Virus record (IMG/VR): IMGVR_UViG_3300046542_000365
Location: 1 to 25,174 of that record
Source of the DNA: a virus
DNA length: 25,174 nucleotides
Direction: 5' to 3' (one strand)
Positions 7,348-25,174 of the stretch are shown here, one piece after another. Under the pieces are notes generated by a model. The model saw only the letters and a list, made by a program, of their open reading frames with translations. It was not told the DNA's origin and did not search any database. How positions within the stretch are numbered: the first letter of the stretch is position 1; each line of letters begins with the position of its first letter. Both the position numbers and the translations under genes were made by a program.

Positions 7348-10005
7348 ATGCGCCACCACGTCTGGGAAAACCAGCCCACCTATCCTGTGTGTCTGCTCGT
7401 CAGCTCGATTCAAACGAGCGAGATCGAGCGGGTCTATTTCCCCGCTGGCTCCACGGTGGACAAGGAAGATGTGATGGTGCTCGACCTTCACTCGACCGGC
7501 AAGAAGACGCCCGTCGGTGAGATGAAGCGCTACATCACCGAGCAGCTTCAGGAAGTGCTCGATGACAGCAAGTGCCAGTACGTGCTGGTCGCGGACTCCG
7601 GCTACTTCAAGGTGCTCACGGGCGCAGCCAAAGCGGACGCCAATCTCGGCTACGTGATGGACAGCCAGTTCGGGCCGCAGAAGATCCTGTACCTGCCCTC
7701 CTTCAAGCTCATGTTCCATGATCCGCAGGGAACCAGGGAGAAAGTGGCGCAGGCGATGGATGCACTCGTCGCTCACGCCACGAGCAGCTACAACGCACCG
7801 GGCCACAACCTCATCAAGTTCGCTGAGTATCCGGAAACGGATGAGGAGATTCAGGCGTGGCTCGATCGGCTCTTGGAGATGGACGTTCCGCTCACAGTGG
7901 ACATCGAGACGTTCGATCTGAAGCACTATGCGGCTGGCATCGGCACGATCAGCTTCACCTGGAACGAGGGGGAAGGCATTGCTTTCGCGGTGGACTACGT
8001 GCCCATCGAGGGAGCAACGCAAGCGCCATTTGGTCGTCGGGTCCATAACCAGACACGTCGAAACATGTTGGCAGTCTTCTTCTTGAAGTTGAAGCAGAAG
8101 GCGATTTATCACAACATTGCCTTCGACGTGTACGTGCTGATCTATCAGCTCTTCATGGGCAGCATCACCGATACGGAAGGTCTGCTCCATGGCCTGAAGA
8201 TCATGCTCAGGAACTGGGACTGCACCAAGCTCATCACCTATCTGGCGACGAACTCGTGTGCAGGCAACGAGCTGGGACTCAAGGTGCAGGCGCAAGCCTT
8301 CGCTGGCAACTATGGACAGGACGAGATCGAGGACATCACCAAGATCCCGCTCAAGCAGTTGCTGGAGTACAACCTGATCGACGGCCTGTCCACCTGGTAC
8401 ACGCACAACAAGCATTACCAGACGATGGTGGATGACGAGCAGCTCGACATCTACGAGAACCTGTTCAAACCGGGAACCGTGGACATCATCCAGATGCAGT
8501 TGACCGGGATGCCGGTCTACATGCCGGCTGTCGATGAAGTCGCCACCGCTTTGCAGGCAGTCTACGACGATGTGATGGTGCGCCTCTCGGGCACCAAGGT
8601 GATCGGCCAGTTCGAGTACCGTCTGAAGGAACAGTACATCGAGAAGAAGCACGCCGAGTGGAAGAAGAAGCGCATCACGATGGCAGAAGTGCCAGATGAG
8701 GTGGTCTTCAATCCGCGCAGCAATCCACAGATGCAGGATCTGCTCTACACCATGCTCGGCATGCCGGTGATTGCCCACACCAAGACGAAACAACCGTCCT
8801 GTGATGGCGACACGATCGCCAAGCTGAAGAACCACACGCAGGATCCGGATGTGCTCGACATGCTGTCGGCGCTGCAGGATCACGCGGCCGTGGACAAGAT
8901 CCTGACCAGTTTCATTCCGGCGCTCAAGAATGCGCAGCAGGGGCCGGATGGCTGGTGGTATCTGTTCGGCAGCTACAACCTGGGCGGGACCGTGTCCGGG
9001 CGGCTCAGCTCGAACAACCCAAACATGCAGAACCTGCCGGCCAACGTGACGATGGCGATCTCGGCTGCGCTGCTTGCAGCCTATCCGGTGCTCGCCAAGT
9101 TCGTGAAGAAGGGCAAGCTGTCGCTCGGCAAGCTGATCAAGTATTGCTTCCAGGCGCCGCCCGGCTGGATTTTCTGCGGACTCGACTTCGCTTCATTGGA
9201 GGACCGCATCAGTGCGCTCACAACGAAAGATCCGCAGAAGCTCAAGGTCTACACGGACGGTTACGACGGCCACTGTCTTCGTGCTCATGCGTACTTCGGG
9301 GACAAGATGCCTGACATCGATCCTAACTCGGTGGAGAGCATCAACTCCATCGAGACGAAGTACAAGGATTACCGGCAGGACTCGAAAGCTCCGACTTTTG
9401 CGCTCACTTATCAGGGGACGTTCTCCACGCTGATGAAGAACTGCGGCTTCACGCTCACGCTGGCCATGGCCATCGAGGCAGCGTATCGCTCGCTCTACCA
9501 TGTCTCCATCAAGTGGGTGCAGGACAGGCTCGACCAGGCAGCCAAGGACGGCTATGTCACAGCAGCTTTCGGGCTGCGGGTGCGTACTCCTCGTCTGGCT
9601 CAGGTCGTCCGCGGCACGAGCCGAACGCCCAAGGAAGCGGAGGCCGAAGGCCGGACAGCCGGCAATGCCCTCGGGCAGAGCTGGTGTCTGCTCAACACCC
9701 GTGCGTGCGTGGAGTTCATGGGCGGTGTGCGCGAGTCGCAGTACCGGCTCGACATCCGCCCGGTGTCGCACATTCACGACGCCCAGTATTACCTCGTGCG
9801 GGAGGACATCGGATGTCTCAGTTACATGAATGAGCATCTGGTGAAGGCTGTCCAGTGGCAGGACCATCCTGACATCTGGCACGACGAGGTCAAGCTCGGT
9901 GGCGAAGTGAGCGTGTTTTTCCCGACCTGGGCGGAGGAAATCACGATCCCCAACGGCGCCAACGAGGACCAGATCATCGAGCTGCTGACCGCCGAAGCTG
10001 CGTAG
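7348..10005 (+). CDS. Family A DNA polymerase with 3'-5' exonuclease
   Basis: This is the replicative DNA polymerase of the Pol I/T7 gp5 class, 885 residues from ATG 7348. That start has AAGGAAG at 7333-7339 with 8-nt spacing and avoids overlap with the previous gene. ATG 7246 (after GAGGAGG) is in frame, adds 34 residues and cannot be excluded. Proofreading motifs: Exo I DIE (D185, E187), Exo II NIAFD (D260), Exo III YNLID (D345). Polymerase motifs: GRLSSNNPNMQNLP, motif A DFASLEDRI (D613), motif B RQDSKAPTFALTYQG (R676, K680, Y688), motif C HIHDAQ (D811). Motif C has alanine where Pol I enzymes usually have glutamate (HDE). The order matches N4 gp39. Activity is near certain; any processivity factor is not evident. 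Confidence 0.95.
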   Translation: MRHHVWENQPTYPVCLLVSSIQTSEIERVYFPAGSTVDKEDVMVLDLHSTGKKTPVGEMKRYITEQLQEVLDDSKCQYVLVADSGYFKVLTGAAKADANLGYVMDSQFGPQKILYLPSFKLMFHDPQGTREKVAQAMDALVAHATSSYNAPGHNLIKFAEYPETDEEIQAWLDRLLEMDVPLTVDIETFDLKHYAAGIGTISFTWNEGEGIAFAVDYVPIEGATQAPFGRRVHNQTRRNMLAVFFLKLKQKAIYHNIAFDVYVLIYQLFMGSITDTEGLLHGLKIMLRNWDCTKLITYLATNSCAGNELGLKVQAQAFAGNYGQDEIEDITKIPLKQLLEYNLIDGLSTWYTHNKHYQTMVDDEQLDIYENLFKPGTVDIIQMQLTGMPVYMPAVDEVATALQAVYDDVMVRLSGTKVIGQFEYRLKEQYIEKKHAEWKKKRITMAEVPDEVVFNPRSNPQMQDLLYTMLGMPVIAHTKTKQPSCDGDTIAKLKNHTQDPDVLDMLSALQDHAAVDKILTSFIPALKNAQQGPDGWWYLFGSYNLGGTVSGRLSSNNPNMQNLPANVTMAISAALLAAYPVLAKFVKKGKLSLGKLIKYCFQAPPGWIFCGLDFASLEDRISALTTKDPQKLKVYTDGYDGHCLRAHAYFGDKMPDIDPNSVESINSIETKYKDYRQDSKAPTFALTYQGTFSTLMKNCGFTLTLAMAIEAAYRSLYHVSIKWVQDRLDQAAKDGYVTAAFGLRVRTPRLAQVVRGTSRTPKEAEAEGRTAGNALGQSWCLLNTRACVEFMGGVRESQYRLDIRPVSHIHDAQYYLVREDIGCLSYMNEHLVKAVQWQDHPDIWHDEVKLGGEVSVFFPTWAEEITIPNGANEDQIIELLTAEAA

Positions 10006-10042
10006 TTTTCTTGGGGTTGCGTTAACTGCTAGACACCTGAGA

Positions 10043-10067
10043 ATCCGTCATTTATCATCCGTCCATT
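10043..10067. repeat. Short direct repeat in the gap after DNA polymerase
   Basis: ATCCGTCATT (10043-10052) recurs as ATCCGTCCATT (10057-10067), a near-exact tandem pair separated by TATC. It lies in the 127-nt gap between the DNA polymerase gene and the next unknown gene, just before a strong hairpin. It may be a regulator binding site; chance is possible at this length. Confidence 0.35.
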
Positions 10068-10080
10068 AGAAATAAGTTTG

Positions 10081-10120
10081 AGGGGAGAAGCCGCCACGGT
10101 TCTCCCCTTCTTTCCCTTTT
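10081..10120 (+). terminator. Rho-independent-type terminator after DNA polymerase
   Basis: AGGGGAGAA (10081-10089) pairs perfectly over 9 bp with TTCTCCCCT (10100-10108); two further C-G pairs extend the stem inside past a bulged G. It is followed by TCTTTCCCTTTT. This is the strongest intrinsic-terminator-like structure in the plus-strand cluster. It lies 25 nt before the next start codon, so it probably modulates read-through rather than fully stopping it. The rest of the 10006-10132 gap shows only weak promoter-like matches. Confidence 0.65.
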
Positions 10121-10132
10121 AGAGGCCCACAC

Positions 10133-10519
10133 ATGAAGGCAACCACCCAAAACGGCAAGCTGTTCCATTTCATGGCAGCCGTCGAAATCGCTTTCGTCGC
10201 ACTCGACGACAAGCAGCAACCGAAGGGCGATCCGTCGATCGCTCGCGTGAACTGCCGCATCACCAACAAAGTCGACCAGCTCGGCGTGCAGCAGCTCGCG
10301 CACGTGCAGCAAGCGGCCCAGATGGCGCTCAAGCAGAAGCTGGGCGACGAAGCGTTCGCCTCGATGTCAGTCATCGACGTGATCATCATCAACATCATCA
10401 GCCTCGGTTTCATGACCGAGGAAGAGTTCCAGGCACGTCCGACGGCGGCCTCGGGCAAGAAGACGGCTCTCCAGATCGTGAAGGAGAACATGGCCAAAGC
10501 ACCGGAAACCGTGCAATGA
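10133..10519 (+). CDS. Unknown 128-residue protein
   Basis: I do not recognise this protein. It is 128 residues with an ATG after TAGAGG in the leader. Residues 1-50 alternate hydrophobic and polar positions (LFHFMAAVEIAFVALDDK), suggesting beta structure. A helix-prone stretch follows (LGVQQLAHVQQAAQMALKQK), then a hydrophobic stretch (VIDVIIINIISLGFM, about 80-95) that could be a buried beta-strand/helix core rather than a membrane span. No cysteines form a metal site and no catalytic motif is visible. It overlaps the DUF3310 gene by ATGA and begins after a terminator-like hairpin, so it heads the second replication block. Codon use matches the neighbours. Confidence 0.75.
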   Translation: MKATTQNGKLFHFMAAVEIAFVALDDKQQPKGDPSIARVNCRITNKVDQLGVQQLAHVQQAAQMALKQKLGDEAFASMSVIDVIIINIISLGFMTEEEFQARPTAASGKKTALQIVKENMAKAPETVQ

Positions 10520-10962
10520 GCCAGGGAAAAGACAAGCCGGCTTTCGTCGAACAGGTAGGCGGTGACCACTATCAGCAGCCGATTCAGGTCTGGGATTTCG
10601 TGGTCGCCAACAAGATCGGTTTCCTCGAAGGCAACGTCATCAAGTACGTCGAGCGCTGGGAGCGCAAGGACGGCATGAAGGATCTACTCAAGGCGAAGAG
10701 CTATGTCGACAAGCTCATCGCTGTCGAGAAAGCACGCCTTGCTGCTGAGCCAGAAAAGAAGATCCCGTCGATCCCGAAGATGGCCGGCAAGGACTACGAG
10801 CATGGCGCGTGGATCGAACATAACGGCAGTCGTAATTGCCCGGTCGATTCTGAAACGCCAGTTCGTTACGAGACTATAGAGGGGAATGTCTACAGTGTCC
10901 TACGGGCAGGTGTTCTGATGTGGGAAGGCATCAAACGGTATCAAGTCACCAGCCGTTTATAG
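10516..10962 (+). CDS. DUF3310 (SaV-like) protein with C-terminal tail module
   Basis: This 148-residue protein carries the DUF3310 motif common in phages and sometimes labelled nucleotide kinase without proof: GGDHYQQPIQVWDFV, then LEGNVIKYVERWERKDGMKDLLKAKSY condensed to residues about 13-65. The C-terminal half (about 95-145) shows the W...HNG...CPVDSETPVRYETIEGNV...W...IKRYQV pattern that recurs as a separate small domain in other phage proteins, sometimes joined to DUF3310. The coding DNA of this tail (10800-10962) is noticeably less GC-rich. The start overlaps the previous stop as ATGA, implying translational coupling. No Walker motif is present, so I would not call it a kinase. Domain recognition is good; biochemical function is unknown. 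Confidence 0.8.
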   Translation: MSQGKDKPAFVEQVGGDHYQQPIQVWDFVVANKIGFLEGNVIKYVERWERKDGMKDLLKAKSYVDKLIAVEKARLAAEPEKKIPSIPKMAGKDYEHGAWIEHNGSRNCPVDSETPVRYETIEGNVYSVLRAGVLMWEGIKRYQVTSRL

Positions 10963-11015
10963 CCTGATCCTTTTCCTTGGCTCGTTTCTCTACTATCCTT
11001 CTTTGAGGACTCCTC

Positions 11016-11996
11016 ATGCTCGTCACCAACAACAATGATGTCTCGCTGCCCATGGCAGTGTGGCTTCTGCACGACGAGTACGACTATCAGAACGACGAGA
11101 ACTACGTCAGTGCGACTCGCCTGATGCGGCCGCTTCGTCACCTCGTACTCCCGCACCGGATCCCTCCGGAGCAAAGGATGCAGCCCGATGTGTCGGACTA
11201 CATCGCCACCTCGCTTGGCAAGGCCGTTCACGATTCCATCGAGAAGGCCTGGAAGAACGGTCACCGTGAAAGCCTGAAGATGCTGGGCTATCCGGATAGC
11301 GTCATCGATCGCATCCGCATCAACCCCGAGGAGCCAGAGGAAGGAACGATTCCGATCTATCTGGAGCAGCGGGCTAAGCGTCAGGTCAACGTCAACGGTC
11401 GTGTCTATACCGTCGGCGGTAAGTTCGACATGGTCGCTGAAGGGATCGTGCAGGACTACAAGTCCACCTCTGTCTGGACGTGGATCTACGGCGGCAAGGA
11501 CGACGACTACCGCCTGCAGGGTTCGATCTATCGCTGGTTGAACCCGGACAAGATCACCGAGGACTTCATCCGCATCAACTTCCTGTTCACGGACTGGAGC
11601 GCAGCGGATGCAAGGACCAACCCGAAGTATCCGGCGCAGCGAGTGGCCTACAAGGACGTGCCACTTCTTTCTCTTGAAGAGACAGAAGCATGGGTCGTCT
11701 GGAAGCTCACGCTGATCCAGAAGTATTGGAACACGCCTGAAAACGAGCTGCCGGAGTGTACCGAGGAAGAACTCTGGCGCTCGTCCCCGAAGTTCAAGTA
11801 TTACAGCGATCCCACAAAGACCAGTGGGCGCTCGACCCGCAATTTCGACACGCTCATCGAAGCCAACAGCTTCTGGAAGGTCGACAAGGGAGGCAAGGGA
11901 ATCGTCATCACAGTGCCCGGAGAAGTGAAACGGTGCAATTACTGTGAGTCGTTCAATGTCTGCTCACAAAAAGATAGGTATATCCAAACGCCATGA
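11016..11996 (+). CDS. PD-(D/E)XK nuclease, RecB/Cas4-like (N4 gp42-type)
   Basis: This 326-residue protein is a probable exonuclease of the PD-(D/E)XK superfamily. Visible are a helix with a conserved histidine (LGKAVHDSIEKAW, H72), the metal site GKFDM (D138) and QDYKST (D147, K149), and the downstream RLQGSIYRW helix that follows the core in RecB/Cas4 relatives. A C-terminal cysteine cluster, CNYCESFNVC (C307, C310, C316), resembles the Fe-S site of Cas4/AddB nucleases, but the usual first cysteine near the N-terminus is absent. Its place directly before the primase matches N4 gp42. It is preceded by GAGGA at suitable spacing and overlaps the next gene as ATGATTGA. The role is probably end resection or recombination during replication; polarity is unknown. 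Confidence 0.82.
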   Translation: MLVTNNNDVSLPMAVWLLHDEYDYQNDENYVSATRLMRPLRHLVLPHRIPPEQRMQPDVSDYIATSLGKAVHDSIEKAWKNGHRESLKMLGYPDSVIDRIRINPEEPEEGTIPIYLEQRAKRQVNVNGRVYTVGGKFDMVAEGIVQDYKSTSVWTWIYGGKDDDYRLQGSIYRWLNPDKITEDFIRINFLFTDWSAADARTNPKYPAQRVAYKDVPLLSLEETEAWVVWKLTLIQKYWNTPENELPECTEEELWRSSPKFKYYSDPTKTSGRSTRNFDTLIEANSFWKVDKGGKGIVITVPGEVKRCNYCESFNVCSQKDRYIQTP

Positions 11997-17215: not shown

Positions 17216-20200
17216 TTACAGGATGTTCACCCACGGGTTCATCTGCGGGGCGTGCAGCAACTGCCCCAGACCCCAGCTATATCCGATCTGCCCGCTGAAG
17301 AGCTTCGCAATGAAGTTGTCCGTCAGTGGTGTGCCGATCGAGCTGAACAAGTCCGGCAGCGGCAGGCTGTAGGCCAGCAGCGTATGCACCGGGTTGTTGC
17401 GCAGCATGGACATCGCCGTCTTCGTCGCCCGGATCTTGAAGTTGTAGAACCACAGCAGACCCACCGACTCCAGATAGCCACGGAACCGACCGGGGAGCTT
17501 GTCATAGTTGACGAACTCTTCGGTGATCCGGCCCAGTGCCTTCTCCTGGCTCAGCTTGTGGCGGTTCATCAGGTCGTCGTACAGCACGGCCTTGGCGATG
17601 AAGTCGCCATACTCCACAGACTTCTGCAGACCCTTGAAGAGCGCGGTGTCTTTGGTCACCAGTGCATAGCGGCCAGCCGTCTGGAAAGCCTTCGGCAACT
17701 TGTCGACCTGCGCTTCCATGAAGGTGTGCCACTTGCCGGAAGTCAGCGCCACATCATCAGCGCCAACCTGCGTTGCATCACTGATCGCAGTGAACTCGCC
17801 GTTCTGAATCAGCGGCCAGATCGACAGACGCTTGAAGCCATCTTCGATAATCTGCCACTGAGTCTGAAGTTGGCGGGACTTCACCACATCATCAACCGAT
17901 GCACGCAGCTCCGCTTCGATCTCGATCTGCTTCTGACGTTGCTTCACATACGCATTAGTCTCAGCGATCTTCTTCGGAATACCAGTCAACACATGCTTGA
18001 TGGGCACTCCGCGGCTCATCAGTTGCAGCACATTGCCCATTGCGTTGATCATCGGCACCACAACACTCTTCACAACGATAAGAGTCTTTGCATCACCGAT
18101 GAAGTTCTGCAACTTACGCTCACCATTGACGAAGTATTCGTAGGCTTTGTTGCCGAACATACCGATCAAAGTCTTCTTCACATACTCTTGAGTTTCCTTT
18201 GACCACCGGGAATTGCCGGTCCACATATCGCCCACGGACGACTGACGATAACCCGTCACATCGTGCAGCATATCCTTGGGCACCCAGAAGGCGTCTTCAC
18301 CGAAGCGAGCCTTGATGGCTGCTCGGGTCTCCGGCGTCCAGAGCTTGACCGCATCATCAATCACCGGGTTGTACTTCAGGTAAGTCCGGTCGAACAGGTT
18401 CACATAGCCCATGATGTTCGAACCGCTCTTCTGCATGTCCGACTCATAGCGGTCGTGCAGCGAGTCGATCAGCGCATTGTTGAACTGCTGCGCCTTCTCC
18501 TCTTCGACCTGACGGCCACGCCATTGGCCGATCTGCTTGGCCATGTTCTGCGGCTCCTGGATCTTCTCCAGCATTGCCGGATCGATCGAGCGCTCATAGG
18601 CGACCACCGAACCGTTACGGTCGAAGACCGGCATCAGCGGCTCATTGCCCTTCTCACCCAGCATCATGTTGGTGTGAATGCGCGCCACCAGATCTCGATC
18701 CGTGATACGGCCGGCGTTCATGGTCGAGTTGTTGTACCCGGTCATGCGATCCACGCCGCCAGCGGTATGCCGCACGTTCTGGAAGATGCCCTGCAGGAAC
18801 ACATTCTTGGCCGGGGTGGAGCTGAAGTAATACCCCATCCTTCCCTTGGTTCCATCAGCCGTCGATCCCGTGTAGTCACCGAGACGGGTGTACGCCTTCT
18901 CGGTCCACTGCTGGTACTCACGGTCATCGGCCACAACCAAATGCACGCTCTGCTTGGTCGTCTCGGGCACGTAGCCCTTGAAGGCGTTCGCTCGAGCGCG
19001 GCCGTTGATCGTGTCCATCTTGCGCAGCTCTTCCGCCCGCTGGCCGACCAGATAGTCGGTAGCGAAGGCGATGCCTTGAGCTTCCTGCTGAGCCAGGGAG
19101 AGAAGACTGTTGCGCTCCGTCGGCGTCAGGTGCTCCAGCGCGTAGAGCGTGGTCAACTGGTCCACCATGTTGACGATGTCGGCGCTCGCATTCTTCGGAC
19201 GGTTGTTCTCGCCCCAGAGGTGAGCGACCGCATGAGCATTGCGCAGCAGGATCTTGCCGACTTCGCCGGTCATCATGAAGCGGGCGAGCTGCTGAGCCTT
19301 CTTCTGGCGAGCGGCGAACCACTTCGGCTCGGCTTGCTGGAGCTGCTTTTCCAGCGCATCGATGGCTTTCGAATGCTCCTTGGCGTCGCCCAGGATCTCA
19401 GCGATCTCGGCATTCGAAAGCGATTGACGCAGAGCTGCGATGTCCGTCTTCGAGAGCGCGCGGTGCAGCGTGTTCCACTCGTGCTCTTCCAGATCCCGGC
19501 TGAACTTGCCGGCGATGATCGAGGGCACGTGCTCACGATAGTTCTGACGGTCTTGCGAGACTTGGCTGCGCACCACCTTCATCATGTCGTAGACAGGAGC
19601 GTTCTGCTCCGTGCGGCCGACGAAGTCATACACCATGTCGTGCAGCGGCTGCCAGGAGTTGGTGCGGTTCATCAACTCCACCACCGACTCGGCCACCTGA
19701 TTGCCGCCCTGCTCGGTCGCCATCTTGAGCGACAATTGCGCCCACTTGGCGGCCGACTTCTGCGCCTTCGATGCCTTCGGATCGTCGATCACCTTCTGCA
19801 TTGCATCGACGCCCTTGGCCGACAGGTCACCGACCATCTCGACGACCTTCTTGTCGAGGTTGTCGACGAACGTCTCAGCGCCCGTGACCTGCTGGAACTC
19901 TTCACGCTCCGCGGCAACCTGCATCACGTGCTGCATCAGGGCGTCGACAGCCGTACCCACCGTCGGCTCGGTCTTGACGCCGGCCGTGCGCTCAGCCAGC
20001 CGGTCCATCAAGCCACCGAAGAAGTTCTCAAGCGTCGCATCCAGACGGCTGCTTGCGGCCGACTTCATCTGCTCGGGCATGCCGATCTGTCCGAGGATGT
20101 CCCGGAACTGGTCGTCGACGATGGCCAGACCCACGAACACCGGCAGGAGCGACGAGCGACCCTGCTTGTCGAACGAGGCGCCGAAGTCACCCACGATGGC

Positions 20201-23200
20201 GTTGACCTTGCGGTTGGCCTGATCACGATCGTTCTGATCGTCATTGGACTCCGGGTTCGCCATGAAGTGTTCGACTTCGAGGTGCTTCACCACGTGCTGG
20301 TACAGCTCCTGAGCGAGCGCCATCGAGTTGGCGTCGAGGTGCATCGACGTGCCCATGGCGGCTGCGATCAGCTCGAACGTCGTCGCCTCTTGCGCGGTCG
20401 TGAGGAAACCCTGACCGCGCAGTGCATTGCGCAGACCCGCTGCCTGGACGGCGGCGAAGTTCGACTGAGCCTGGAACGTGGTCTTCGCATCCTTCGGGTT
20501 CGGCTGCGTGCGGAAGGCCTCCAGCATCGCGCTGAACGACTGGTTGTAGGCGGCCAGCCGCTCGTTGGTGCCATAGGCCGACGAGTGATAGAGCGAGGTG
20601 CCACGCAGCGCTTGTTGCGGGGTGGGCTGCGAGCGCATCACGATCGACGAGTTGAACAGCAGGTTGCTGAACAGATCGTCACCCGGCTTCGGATCCGTGA
20701 CCTTCTTGCGGCCCCAGATCAGTTGCTTGATCGCAGCGAACGCATCCTTCGCCAGTTGAACCAGAGGGGAAACTTTCGTCTTCTGGGCAAGCTCTGCCAG
20801 TTGCTTGTTGGCCAGCGCCCACGCCATGAACTCGTTCAGAGCCTTGGCCTTGGCAGTTGCATCCTGGCCACGTGCCGAGTTGATCGCTGCCATCGCATCG
20901 GCATAGGCCTGCTGCGTCGAAAGCGTCTCGCGCGAGACATCCATGTTTGCAAACTGGCCCATCATCGTCTCGATGCGGCCGATCGCTTCGGCCACTTCCG
21001 GACGAGTCGTGTCGCCCTGGTAGTGAGCGAGCACCGCTTCGAACGTCGCCGCATGGATCAGCTCGTGCGTGAGCACTTCGCTATCCGGGTTGACGATGTA
21101 GATCGTGCGCGAGTCCGGCACGGTCACACCCGAGTCGCCACGGTTGAGCGAGGCGGACTGTTCGTCTCCCTTGGTTCGCGCGTAAGCGGCCACTTGCTCC
21201 GGCGTGCCGGTCACCACCGAGTAGCCCTTGGTGGAGAGCGACAGGCGGATCTCGTTCAACAGCGCCTTCTGGTGCGCCGGGATATTCGGCAGACCCTTCA
21301 TCACCAGCTTCTTGATAGCCGACGGCGAGAGCACCCGAGCGCCGGTCGCCTTGTTGATACGGCCGTACTGGTTGATCTGCCCGCCGATCGCTTCCGACTC
21401 CATGGCGGCCGTGTGTGCTGCCGGCTCTTCGGCTACACGTGCCGGAGCCACATCGATGCCTGCCTGCTGCTTGAGCTTGTTCAGCTCCTCGGCGTACATC
21501 TTGGACATGGCGATCGCCACTTCCTCATCGCTGCCGGTGAGCTGGATCTTGCCCGACACCACATGCGGAGCGCCGGCAGAGGACATCTGATCGACCGCCA
21601 GATTGAGCTGGTCGAGCACGTTGTGACGGGCTTGCGCTTCGAGCGCCCGGTCACGCAAAGCAGGCACCAGCTCGTTGAGGCGTTCAGCCACTTCCGAGGC
21701 CTCGTACTCTGCACCCTTCTGGTCCAGACCGAAGAGCGCTTTGACCAGTTGCTCATGCACGTCATCCGGCAGCTCCATCTTGTCCTTGTTCACCTGTTCC
21801 ATGAACGGTGCGAACGAGTCATAGACGGCCTGCAGCGGATTGGCACGCCAGCTTTCGAGCACGGCCTCATTGGCGGCGCGAGACTGCTCCATGATCGAGT
21901 CGAGCGGCATGTTCATACCGTCGAAGATCTTGAGCGTGCGCTTCACACGCGGATCGTTGGCGAGGATCTGCATCATCATGCCGTCGCCCATACCGATGTT
22001 CAGGAACGGGATACCCGCCACGCCGGCGTTGGCCGGACCGTAGATGAAGCCCGGCGAGCGCAGCGTGTCATCGAGCGCACGGGCGAACACCGAGGTATTG
22101 ACCCCGCTGTTCTGGTTGCCGGCCACGAAGAACTCCTGCCCTGCCGTCTTGATGGTCGGGTGATACGGAGCCAGGGAGCGGAACACTTCCATCACTTCCT
22201 GGTTCGACAGGAAGTCGCTGCGCTTGAAGAGCGGATCGCTTGCTGCACGTGCATCCACCGCCGCATCGATCTTCGTCTTGAAGATGTGAGCGAGCAGGAT
22301 GGACTGCGCCTGAGTTGCCTGACGAATGTGCGTGGTGCTGTCCGTCAGACGCGAACCGACCGTCTTGTTGATGGCGTTCACCAGCGGACCGACGAACAGA
22401 TGCTGCACGTTCGTGGTGAGATTCTTCATCTCGTCCTTGTTCATGGTGAAATCAGCAAAGCTGCCCCAGGACTCGTTCTCCTTCACCGACTGCTTGAAGA
22501 AGTACCAGTCACCGTGCTGGCTCTTCTTCGTGCTGAAGACTACCGTCTCATGCGTGAGGTCGTGCATGATGTCCCGGAACTGCTTCCACTTCTGCTGTGC
22601 CTGGAGATCGTCCGGGAAGAACGCTTCAGCGGCCGTCATCTTGCGACCACCACGCTCGGCGTCCATGCCACGCTGTGCGGCCGCACTCATGCGCTCATAC
22701 AGCTCGCCCATCATGGCGCCAGCCAGCTTGGCTGCGATACCACGCGGACCTGAACCGTAGATCGTGATGGTGAGCGGGTTCTTCGCCACACCACGCTCGG
22801 CCTTGAGCACATCGCCATCGAGCTTGATGTCAGGCAAGAGCAAGCCCATCAGGCGCTTCATCTTCTTCATGTGCTCGGCTTGATCGGCCATCGCACCGAA
22901 GCGGAACTTGTCTTCCAGATCCGACAGCTCATCAGTCAGATGGTTGGTAGCGACCTGATACAGATCCGCGCTCGTGCCTGAGTTGCGGATCAACTGCGAG
23001 GTGTCCATGTCATTGCCGCCGATGGTCAAACCACCCCGGCGCATGTTGGTCACCCAGTCAGCATCGAACGGACCGGTGGAGAGCAGCGCCATGGCGTTGA
23101 CCGGACCATTGGTCATACCGTCGGCTTCGAGGTACTTGGTCGTGGTGAAGGCTTGGCGCTCTTCCGCCGTGGCGTTCTGGTAGCGTGCCCACTCCGTGAG

Positions 23201-25174
23201 TGCATGCAGAGCCAGAGGAGAAATGGCCAGCTTCGCCTTCTGGAAGCCCGTCTCAATCGGCAGCGTGTCGAAGTCAGCCTCGCCCTTCAACCACTTCTGC
23301 AGATGCTCGACGGCCGGTGCCAGCTTCGCCAGCTTGTCTTCCAGCTTCTCGGTCACACCTGCCACTTCAGCCGTGCCGTTGTACTGGAAGTTATGGACCT
23401 TGATGTCCAGTGCCTGAGCCAGGCCCAGATCGAAAGCACGCTTGTGTTCAGCCGTCGTGAGATCGAGCGTCGACCGAGTCGGCAGCATGACCTCGCGGAT
23501 GAACTTCGTGCTCTGCGGGTTGAACTTGCCAAGCATCTGCATCCGCCCAACTCGGCTCATGTTGTAGCCGTAGTGAGTCGGCACATTGGTGATGTGAACG
23601 CCCAGCTCATCTGCCTGCCCCTGCAGTGCATCGTGCAGGTCTTCGAACGCATCGAACGCCTGGGAGATCGAGCGGTTCTGTCCGACGAGTGATGCCTCAT
23701 GGTTCACGTTGAGCACGCGACCTTCCAGATCACCAGCACCGAACCAGCGCAGAGCCACATCACGGCCCATGTCGAAGTACAGATTCGCCATGGTTTCGTT
23801 CAGATAGTTCGGCGTGTTCTGCTCGTTCTTGATGGCGCGGAGCTGATCTTCCGTGTTCTTCACGTACTCGTTGCGCATCTGTTCTTCAGCAACAGGCGGA
23901 CGATCCTTGTTGAAGTAGTAAGTGGGCGTCGGATCATTCATCACAGCCCGCTCAATCAGATCCGGCTGAGCACGCAGTGCCTCCTTCAGACGCTGCATCT
24001 TCGGTTCGTCATCTTCCGAGATGAGCTTTTCCGTGGTGATGCGCTGGATGTTCTTGAGCTTCTTCTCCTTGATGAGATCCTTACTCGGCGCGTCATAGAT
24101 CTGATCCTGCTCATCCGGGCTGACCCAGAAGTCATCGGTGCCGAGCAGGCCCACATCCTTGTGCGCCATGGCACGCAGCACTTCAGCAGCCATCACAAGC
24201 GGGATGCCCTGAGCGATACCTTCCGGCGTGTTGTCATTGGCACGCACGCCCCAGTATTGCTGGATCTTTGCGGCGAGTGAATCCATGGCGTCAATCGTGG
24301 ACGTGGTGCCCTTCACGCGCTCCATCAGAACTTTCCCGACCATCTCTTGGGAGATGCCCAGGTGCGCCGCCACGGTACGCTCATCGTGGACACCACCACC
24401 TTGCTGGCCACCGCTCATCCACCATTGCAGGCCGGCGAGAATGGCGCCTTGCAGCAACTGCTCGTTGTACTTGAACGTGCCACCCGACTCTTCGGTGAGG
24501 TTCAGGATCCGGCCATCGGTCCAGGTGTGGACCGGCTTCGTGCCGTCCTTGAAGTGCTGGCCGACATCCTTGTCCGTGAGGAAGGTCTGCAGGTTGCCGC
24601 GCATGATCTTGGCGATCTTCATGGCGTTGCCATTGAAGAGCACCTTGTAGGCGTCGTAAGTCGCACCCGACTTCTTGCTGGAGAGCTTGCGCACCTGCTC
24701 CTTGATGCTGTCGGCCACACCGGCGAACGGTACTTCCATCGTCGGAATGTTGGTGGGCGGCAAGCCTGCTGCATCAGCCTTGACCGGACGGAAGTTGTTC
24801 GTGAAGAGGTTGCCACCGGCATCCGGCTGCACCAGGCGATCGTACATAGCGGCCAGACCCTGCTTCTTCTCTTCCTTGGTTCCTTCCTTAGAAGTTTCCT
24901 TGGTTTCGGAACCAGAAGAAGGAGCTTCAGTCTTTGCAACGGGTTCTGAATTAACCGCTTCGTCAACTTTTGCCGGTGCTGCGGGCTTTTCTGCGACAGG
25001 CTCGGTAACCTTTTCGACAGTCTCCACTTGAGGAGCAGGGTTTACCGTATCCTTCGGGGCAGGAGCGGGAGATGCTTTCTCATCAGACGTAACCGTTTGT
25101 TTCGGTTCTTGAGCAGGCGCTGCCTCCTTCCTACCCTGTTCACTAACCGACCGGCTGCCGTCCTTGAACCCCTT
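17216..25174 (-). CDS. Giant virion RNA polymerase (N4 gp50-type) with embedded zincin motif, 5'-truncated
   Basis: The visible part is 2652 residues (numbered here from the right window edge); the frame runs off the edge, so the N-terminus is missing. The first about 95 residues are a Pro/Ala/Glu/Lys-rich linker. A T7-like single-subunit RNA polymerase follows: YNMSRVGR...FNPQ (539-551, equivalent to the T/DxxGR motif), motif A EADGMTNGP (D685), motif B RGVAKNPLTITIYG (R794, K798, Y806), then GMGDG (D1064) and motif C IFDGMNMP (D1085). A zinc-peptidase motif HELIH (H1370, E1371, H1374) comes later, with a candidate third ligand in NEFMAWAL (E1448). The remaining about 1200 residues are helical and unrecognised. 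In N4 this protein is packaged, injected and transcribes early genes from hairpin promoters. Polymerase identity is strong; peptidase activity is inferred. Confidence 0.9.
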   Translation of the reverse strand, partial: KGFKDGSRSVSEQGRKEAAPAQEPKQTVTSDEKASPAPAPKDTVNPAPQVETVEKVTEPVAEKPAAPAKVDEAVNSEPVAKTEAPSSGSETKETSKEGTKEEKKQGLAAMYDRLVQPDAGGNLFTNNFRPVKADAAGLPPTNIPTMEVPFAGVADSIKEQVRKLSSKKSGATYDAYKVLFNGNAMKIAKIMRGNLQTFLTDKDVGQHFKDGTKPVHTWTDGRILNLTEESGGTFKYNEQLLQGAILAGLQWWMSGGQQGGGVHDERTVAAHLGISQEMVGKVLMERVKGTTSTIDAMDSLAAKIQQYWGVRANDNTPEGIAQGIPLVMAAEVLRAMAHKDVGLLGTDDFWVSPDEQDQIYDAPSKDLIKEKKLKNIQRITTEKLISEDDEPKMQRLKEALRAQPDLIERAVMNDPTPTYYFNKDRPPVAEEQMRNEYVKNTEDQLRAIKNEQNTPNYLNETMANLYFDMGRDVALRWFGAGDLEGRVLNVNHEASLVGQNRSISQAFDAFEDLHDALQGQADELGVHITNVPTHYGYNMSRVGRMQMLGKFNPQSTKFIREVMLPTRSTLDLTTAEHKRAFDLGLAQALDIKVHNFQYNGTAEVAGVTEKLEDKLAKLAPAVEHLQKWLKGEADFDTLPIETGFQKAKLAISPLALHALTEWARYQNATAEERQAFTTTKYLEADGMTNGPVNAMALLSTGPFDADWVTNMRRGGLTIGGNDMDTSQLIRNSGTSADLYQVATNHLTDELSDLEDKFRFGAMADQAEHMKKMKRLMGLLLPDIKLDGDVLKAERGVAKNPLTITIYGSGPRGIAAKLAGAMMGELYERMSAAAQRGMDAERGGRKMTAAEAFFPDDLQAQQKWKQFRDIMHDLTHETVVFSTKKSQHGDWYFFKQSVKENESWGSFADFTMNKDEMKNLTTNVQHLFVGPLVNAINKTVGSRLTDSTTHIRQATQAQSILLAHIFKTKIDAAVDARAASDPLFKRSDFLSNQEVMEVFRSLAPYHPTIKTAGQEFFVAGNQNSGVNTSVFARALDDTLRSPGFIYGPANAGVAGIPFLNIGMGDGMMMQILANDPRVKRTLKIFDGMNMPLDSIMEQSRAANEAVLESWRANPLQAVYDSFAPFMEQVNKDKMELPDDVHEQLVKALFGLDQKGAEYEASEVAERLNELVPALRDRALEAQARHNVLDQLNLAVDQMSSAGAPHVVSGKIQLTGSDEEVAIAMSKMYAEELNKLKQQAGIDVAPARVAEEPAAHTAAMESEAIGGQINQYGRINKATGARVLSPSAIKKLVMKGLPNIPAHQKALLNEIRLSLSTKGYSVVTGTPEQVAAYARTKGDEQSASLNRGDSGVTVPDSRTIYIVNPDSEVLTHELIHAATFEAVLAHYQGDTTRPEVAEAIGRIETMMGQFANMDVSRETLSTQQAYADAMAAINSARGQDATAKAKALNEFMAWALANKQLAELAQKTKVSPLVQLAKDAFAAIKQLIWGRKKVTDPKPGDDLFSNLLFNSSIVMRSQPTPQQALRGTSLYHSSAYGTNERLAAYNQSFSAMLEAFRTQPNPKDAKTTFQAQSNFAAVQAAGLRNALRGQGFLTTAQEATTFELIAAAMGTSMHLDANSMALAQELYQHVVKHLEVEHFMANPESNDDQNDRDQANRKVNAIVGDFGASFDKQGRSSLLPVFVGLAIVDDQFRDILGQIGMPEQMKSAASSRLDATLENFFGGLMDRLAERTAGVKTEPTVGTAVDALMQHVMQVAAEREEFQQVTGAETFVDNLDKKVVEMVGDLSAKGVDAMQKVIDDPKASKAQKSAAKWAQLSLKMATEQGGNQVAESVVELMNRTNSWQPLHDMVYDFVGRTEQNAPVYDMMKVVRSQVSQDRQNYREHVPSIIAGKFSRDLEEHEWNTLHRALSKTDIAALRQSLSNAEIAEILGDAKEHSKAIDALEKQLQQAEPKWFAARQKKAQQLARFMMTGEVGKILLRNAHAVAHLWGENNRPKNASADIVNMVDQLTTLYALEHLTPTERNSLLSLAQQEAQGIAFATDYLVGQRAEELRKMDTINGRARANAFKGYVPETTKQSVHLVVADDREYQQWTEKAYTRLGDYTGSTADGTKGRMGYYFSSTPAKNVFLQGIFQNVRHTAGGVDRMTGYNNSTMNAGRITDRDLVARIHTNMMLGEKGNEPLMPVFDRNGSVVAYERSIDPAMLEKIQEPQNMAKQIGQWRGRQVEEEKAQQFNNALIDSLHDRYESDMQKSGSNIMGYVNLFDRTYLKYNPVIDDAVKLWTPETRAAIKARFGEDAFWVPKDMLHDVTGYRQSSVGDMWTGNSRWSKETQEYVKKTLIGMFGNKAYEYFVNGERKLQNFIGDAKTLIVVKSVVVPMINAMGNVLQLMSRGVPIKHVLTGIPKKIAETNAYVKQRQKQIEIEAELRASVDDVVKSRQLQTQWQIIEDGFKRLSIWPLIQNGEFTAISDATQVGADDVALTSGKWHTFMEAQVDKLPKAFQTAGRYALVTKDTALFKGLQKSVEYGDFIAKAVLYDDLMNRHKLSQEKALGRITEEFVNYDKLPGRFRGYLESVGLLWFYNFKIRATKTAMSMLRNNPVHTLLAYSLPLPDLFSSIGTPLTDNFIAKLFSGQIGYSWGLGQLLHAPQMNPWVNIL

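Follow-up and report, generated by a model that had tools for sequence, protein, structure and literature searches.

The giant virion RNA polymerase (vRNAP) encoded in the virus record analysed here carries, behind its polymerase region, the C1 subdomain of N4-like vRNAPs, which is a zincin domain of the gluzincin type, i.e., an HExxH motif with a downstream glutamate, and is predicted to be, probably, a working zinc peptidase. The stretch of DNA that was analysed, referred to as the window, is the entire record, 25,174 bases long. We infer zinc binding, peptidase activity, its timing and its substrate for C1, and our favoured reading, to which we give a probability of roughly 0.5, is an active zinc peptidase that is quiet in the virion and, once ejected, works on the ejection complex or on a host protein.

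The sequence-only reading of the window had implied that a zincin within an N4-like vRNAP was new, but it was not. Iyer et al. 2017 (PMC5512222) had already assigned residues 2130-2448 of the N4 vRNAP to the zincin-like metallopeptidases and had named the same functions, i.e., that the domain might process its own protein within the head, bring about release once injected, or attack host proteins. A 2021 review (PMC8472413) repeated the assignment for N4 and Pectobacterium phage CB1, and a 2025 preprint on the N4 vRNAP structure (PMC12633501) resolves the domain as C1 (residues 2124-2375) and mentions the HExxH motif. Since all three sources already describe the domain, its detection by the sequence-only reading is a rediscovery, made from the letters alone. 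Three points are additional: a measurement, across the family and relative to the polymerase motifs, of how strictly the catalytic residues are kept; a link between the vRNAP zincin and phiKMV gp37, for which the papers searched gave no precedent; and the tandem zincins of Vibrio phage phi 1.

The vRNAP gene and its domain layout

The vRNAP gene lies on the minus strand, a detail absent from the sequence-only reading, and continues beyond the end of the record, which cuts off its 5' end, leaving 2652 aa visible and about 900 N-terminal residues outside (Table 1). Compared with PHROGs, the visible product matches phrog_2206 ("virion RNA polymerase") with E=0. It is approximately 43% identical to N4 gp50 and aligns with N4 residues 901-3498; vRNAPs of this family have about 3500 aa and an N-terminal injection domain, and the end of the record cuts the frame before such a domain would come into view. 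All four Pfam N4 vRNAP domains score above their cut-offs and the invariant polymerase residues are present, as expected of a Schitoviridae (N4-like) vRNAP.

Table 1. Features of the vRNAP gene in the window (residue numbers refer to the visible 2652 aa).
Feature	Positions	Strand	Basis
N4-like virion RNA polymerase (vRNAP)	17216..25174	-	phrog_2206, N4 gp50 identity, alignment to N4
T7-like polymerase region (Pfam vRNAP_dom_2, vRNAP_plug, N4_RNAP_helical, vRNAP_dom), residues 443-1197	21584..23848	-	Pfam
Polymerase motif C, FDG (D1085)	21917..21925	-	motif comparison
Linker between polymerase and metallopeptidase, about residues 1242-1262, variable among relatives	21389..21451	-	counterpart of the N4 23-residue linker
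Zincin-like metallopeptidase domain and following helices, residues 1262-1530 (= N4 subdomain C1)	20585..21391	-	AlphaFold2, Foldseek
Strand TIYIVNPDSEVL running into the active-site helix	21071..21106	-	sequence and AlphaFold2 model
E1366, four residues ahead of HExxH	21077..21079	-	conservation (90/91)
HELIH, residues 1370-1374 (H1370, E1371, H1374), predicted zinc ligands and general base	21053..21067	-	conservation
NEFMAWALAN helix, residues 1447-1456, with E1448 (20831-20833) as predicted third zinc ligand	20807..20836	-	conservation and model
Large C-terminal region, equivalent of N4 subdomain C2	17219..20584	-	position relative to N4

Two further features of this region were observed. 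The C-terminal end of the vRNAP (window 17363-18361, residues 2272-2604) matches phrog_19273 (E=4.5e-24), a profile of 4846 positions and unknown function. On the plus strand, a 1496-codon open frame runs antisense to the vRNAP gene (window 18263-22753) and probably results from codon usage.

Conservation of the catalytic residues

The spacing given by the sequence-only reading was exact: H1370 follows D1085 of polymerase motif C by 285 residues, and E1448 follows H1370 by 78. It had also proposed that the HExxH and the downstream glutamate would be conserved among vRNAP homologues, and the alignment bears this out. The set comprised 93 vRNAPs (74 IMG/VR loci, 18 annotated phages across the family, and the window), 91 of which cover the zincin region; the other two, L073 and L074, lack the HExxH as both start at a contig end past the motif, and they stand outside the count. 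H1370, E1371, H1374 and E1448 are identical in 91/91 and are the sole invariant columns across a 450-residue stretch, in a set where identity to the window domain goes down to about 15%. When 22 vRNAPs spanning the family were compared, the invariant residues were those of the polymerase active site plus these four. The codons at the four sites are split between synonyms, which indicates that selection acts on the amino acid. Such absolute conservation of catalytic residues across Schitoviridae says that the predicted activity is needed. Two flanking residues are nearly invariant, E1366 in 90 of the 91 and N1456 (nt 20807-20809) in 89, and may line the active site.

A lone HExxH is weak evidence, because shuffled copies of the window vRNAP contain 0.06 such motifs on average; several vRNAPs also have chance copies towards their N terminus. 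For the motif described here, a chance origin was ruled out by the 91/91 invariance, the 22-member comparison and the synonymous codon variation. Because the first set of loci had been fetched partly with a pattern that included ALNEFMAW, a second fetch used polymerase-region queries, which are blind to the zincin motif. The HExxH is kept in 18/18 further loci obtained in this way and in all 18 annotated phage records, which were picked by whole-protein or weak-domain match, and sampling bias from the pattern was thereby ruled out. A search of genome contigs with the window polymerase region found no prophage relative.

The zincin region varies in architecture in a few of the phages. Vibrio phage phi 1 has two tandem zincins, with HExxH at 1950 and 2185, while JSF3, 94% identical to it over the polymerase region, has a single zincin and 218 fewer residues overall. 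In Vibrio phage 1.188.B, about 400 extra residues lie between motif C (1905) and HExxH (2586), a stretch whose size is unmatched in the other vRNAPs compared.

Predicted fold and fold neighbours

The structure prediction and fold search that the sequence-only reading had proposed were carried out, and the zincin helix pair is present in the models. AlphaFold2 predicted the domain with high confidence (pLDDT 90.6 and pTM 0.89 with 61 homologues; pLDDT 93.7 and pTM 0.87 for a trimmed core). The model runs through a strand, a helix, two strands, the HELIH active-site helix, two helices and the E1448 helix (helix 178-194 of the model), which is the layout of a small zincin. Conservation and predicted layout together uphold the proposed zincin pattern with a glutamate as third ligand.

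Foldseek returned the cryo-EM structures of the N4 vRNAP (9pnr/9pnt, E 6e-12) as best matches and as the sole significant match in the PDB. For the trimmed core, most matches after N4 are HExxH+Glu peptidases from various families, singly not significant (E 0.1-2), and there are structural matches to other polyvalent proteins as well. No curated Pfam or NCBIfam peptidase family scored above its cut-off on the window domain; among relatives, Pfam gave scattered weak matches to zinc peptidases, namely SprT-like (25/61 members), DUF5700, Tox-MPTase4 and M91. A profile search of PDB sequences yielded only N4 and chain G of 9sfn at E<0.001.

A homologous zincin in phiKMV-type ejection proteins

The schitovirus CTD profile matches phiKMV gp37 (gene 7567-11580) with E=7e-16, the search size being set to 50,000. 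PHROGs gave the same link independently: phiKMV gp37 matches phrog_2206, the vRNAP family, at E=2.5e-17 over residues 415-563 only, i.e., over exactly the zincin. Chain G of 9sfn, an "internal virion protein" of 1337 residues matched by the profile at E=3.7e-5, agrees in length and sequence with phiKMV gp37, which is also 1337 residues long. In the literature searched we found neither a zincin described in phiKMV gp37 nor a paper on 9SFN.

According to a 2022 review (PMC8954989), phiKMV gp37 is the counterpart of gp16. All eight phiKMV-like gp16-type core proteins compared keep the HExxH, the A and T that follow it (HExxHAxT-type) and the downstream Glu. LIMElight is the weakest of the eight; its match to the CTD profile alone is not significant, and it was placed by a whole-protein match to phrog_342. 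T7 gp16 has a chance HERLH and no profile match, i.e., the classical T7 gp16 is without the zincin domain.

The occurrence of the zincin in polymerase-free phiKMV-type proteins indicates that the common factor is ejection, not transcription. No function bound up with the polymerase can account for both the vRNAP and phiKMV gp37, which directs attention to entry, and the parallel points to a role of the zincin in entry rather than in transcription. We suggest, tentatively, that these homologous, catalytically intact zincins, which two unrelated families have in the largest protein they eject (the Schitoviridae vRNAP and the phiKMV-type gp37), might be an entry enzyme common to podovirus ejection complexes, acting independently of transcription on a common class of targets at or just inside the envelope.

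Possible functions of the domain

An active domain would mean that the phage ejection complex delivers a protease as infection begins. The zincin would be packaged within the intact vRNAP polypeptide, and the peptidase would stay silent both inside the head and while the protein is being ejected; activity would begin after refolding, either at the inner membrane or in the cytoplasm, and the main substrate would be another protein, either a partner in the ejection complex or a host protein that the vRNAP encounters on entry. Two indirect points suggest such a substrate in trans, namely that no conserved self-cleavage site was found among relatives in the linker between polymerase and C1, and the phiKMV parallel. 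We rank this post-ejection action on other proteins ahead of self-cleavage in the host, in which the zincin would cut its own polypeptide after injection, for instance at the flexible linker, and so free the polymerase from a restraining CTD. Self-cleavage would suit the position of the zincin, which directly adjoins that linker (in N4, the 23 residues before C1 are invisible in the structure), and release of domains in the host was proposed by Iyer et al. (PMC5512222). In the structure preprint (PMC12633501), moreover, the N4 polymerase is reported to be less productive with the CTD, which moves the B-motif loop out of place; what the CTD does in early transcription is left unexplained there. 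Nevertheless, the linker varies widely in sequence and length, the same preprint describes full-length N4 vRNAP (3500 residues) as purified without degradation, and the phiKMV-type proteins have the zincin without any polymerase. The variable linker and the polymerase-free proteins speak against polymerase release as the common function, and we consider self-cleavage rather unlikely; release of the polymerase could be an added function in schitoviruses.

The sequence-only reading had also offered cleavage of the giant polypeptide for ejection. Processing of the vRNAP or of further virion proteins, either before they enter the head or within it, whether for fit or for readiness to eject, is on the list of possible roles drawn up by Iyer et al.; yet the same paper reports that the N4 vRNAP is packaged unprocessed, and the N4 structure work uses the full-length protein. 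As the N4 protein is reported to enter the virion in one piece and to be purified intact, these data weigh against cleavage before or inside the virion, which we regard as very improbable. Somewhat less improbable, but still doubtful, is that the domain is not a peptidase at all and instead holds a structural metal site, or is an iron-dependent HExxH oxygenase, serving for example the contact between CTD and polymerase. C1 of N4 does touch the polymerase, through a D2012-R2279 salt bridge, and radical-SAM-associated HExxH proteins are named beside zincins (both from PMC12633501). A structural site could, however, dispense with the general-base glutamate; E1371 is never lost, and catalysis fits this better than a structural metal site. 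Furthermore, the predicted third ligand is an invariant glutamate, which is the gluzincin arrangement, and gluzincin-type peptidases come next after N4 among the fold matches. A zinc peptidase that acts after ejection, mainly on other proteins, thus remains our preferred reading.

Comparison with known systems

The closest known system is C1 of N4 gp50 (PDB 9PNR/9PNT; maps at 2.6-2.9 A, that of 9PNR being EMD-71769), where H2228, E2229, H2232 and E2310 correspond to the four invariant residues and which belongs to the same protein, has the same position after the polymerase, the motifs HELVH and LNEFMAW, approximately 47% identity over the domain, and the same fold. The two vRNAPs differ by sequence divergence only, the N-terminal part of the window protein being out of view. 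In the papers searched we found no report of bound zinc or of proteolysis by the domain, and in the N4 preprint text found the only mention is of the HExxH motif. Gluzincin-type peptidases of solved structure (the M34 and M9 peptidase domains, PprI/IrrE and selecase) have, like the window domain, an HExxH and a downstream Glu ligand, which is predicted here, but show no detectable sequence relation to it, and their fold matches are singly not significant.

With the zincin-like MPTases of polyvalent proteins, the window domain has in common an HExxH helix after a small beta sheet, a downstream Glu helix, and fusion in a giant protein that is delivered along with the DNA. The large multidomain partner is in this case the vRNAP, whose delivery to the host is known from the N4 literature. 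In terms of curated families, the window domain is a polyvalent-type zincin that no Pfam or NCBIfam model reaches at cut-off. The relation to phiKMV gp37 is of another kind: the window vRNAP matches phrog_2206 and phrog_19273 and not phrog_342, to which gp37 belongs, and the homologous zincin domain is the only part that they have in common, gp37 being a gp16-like ejection protein of the Autographiviridae with no polymerase.
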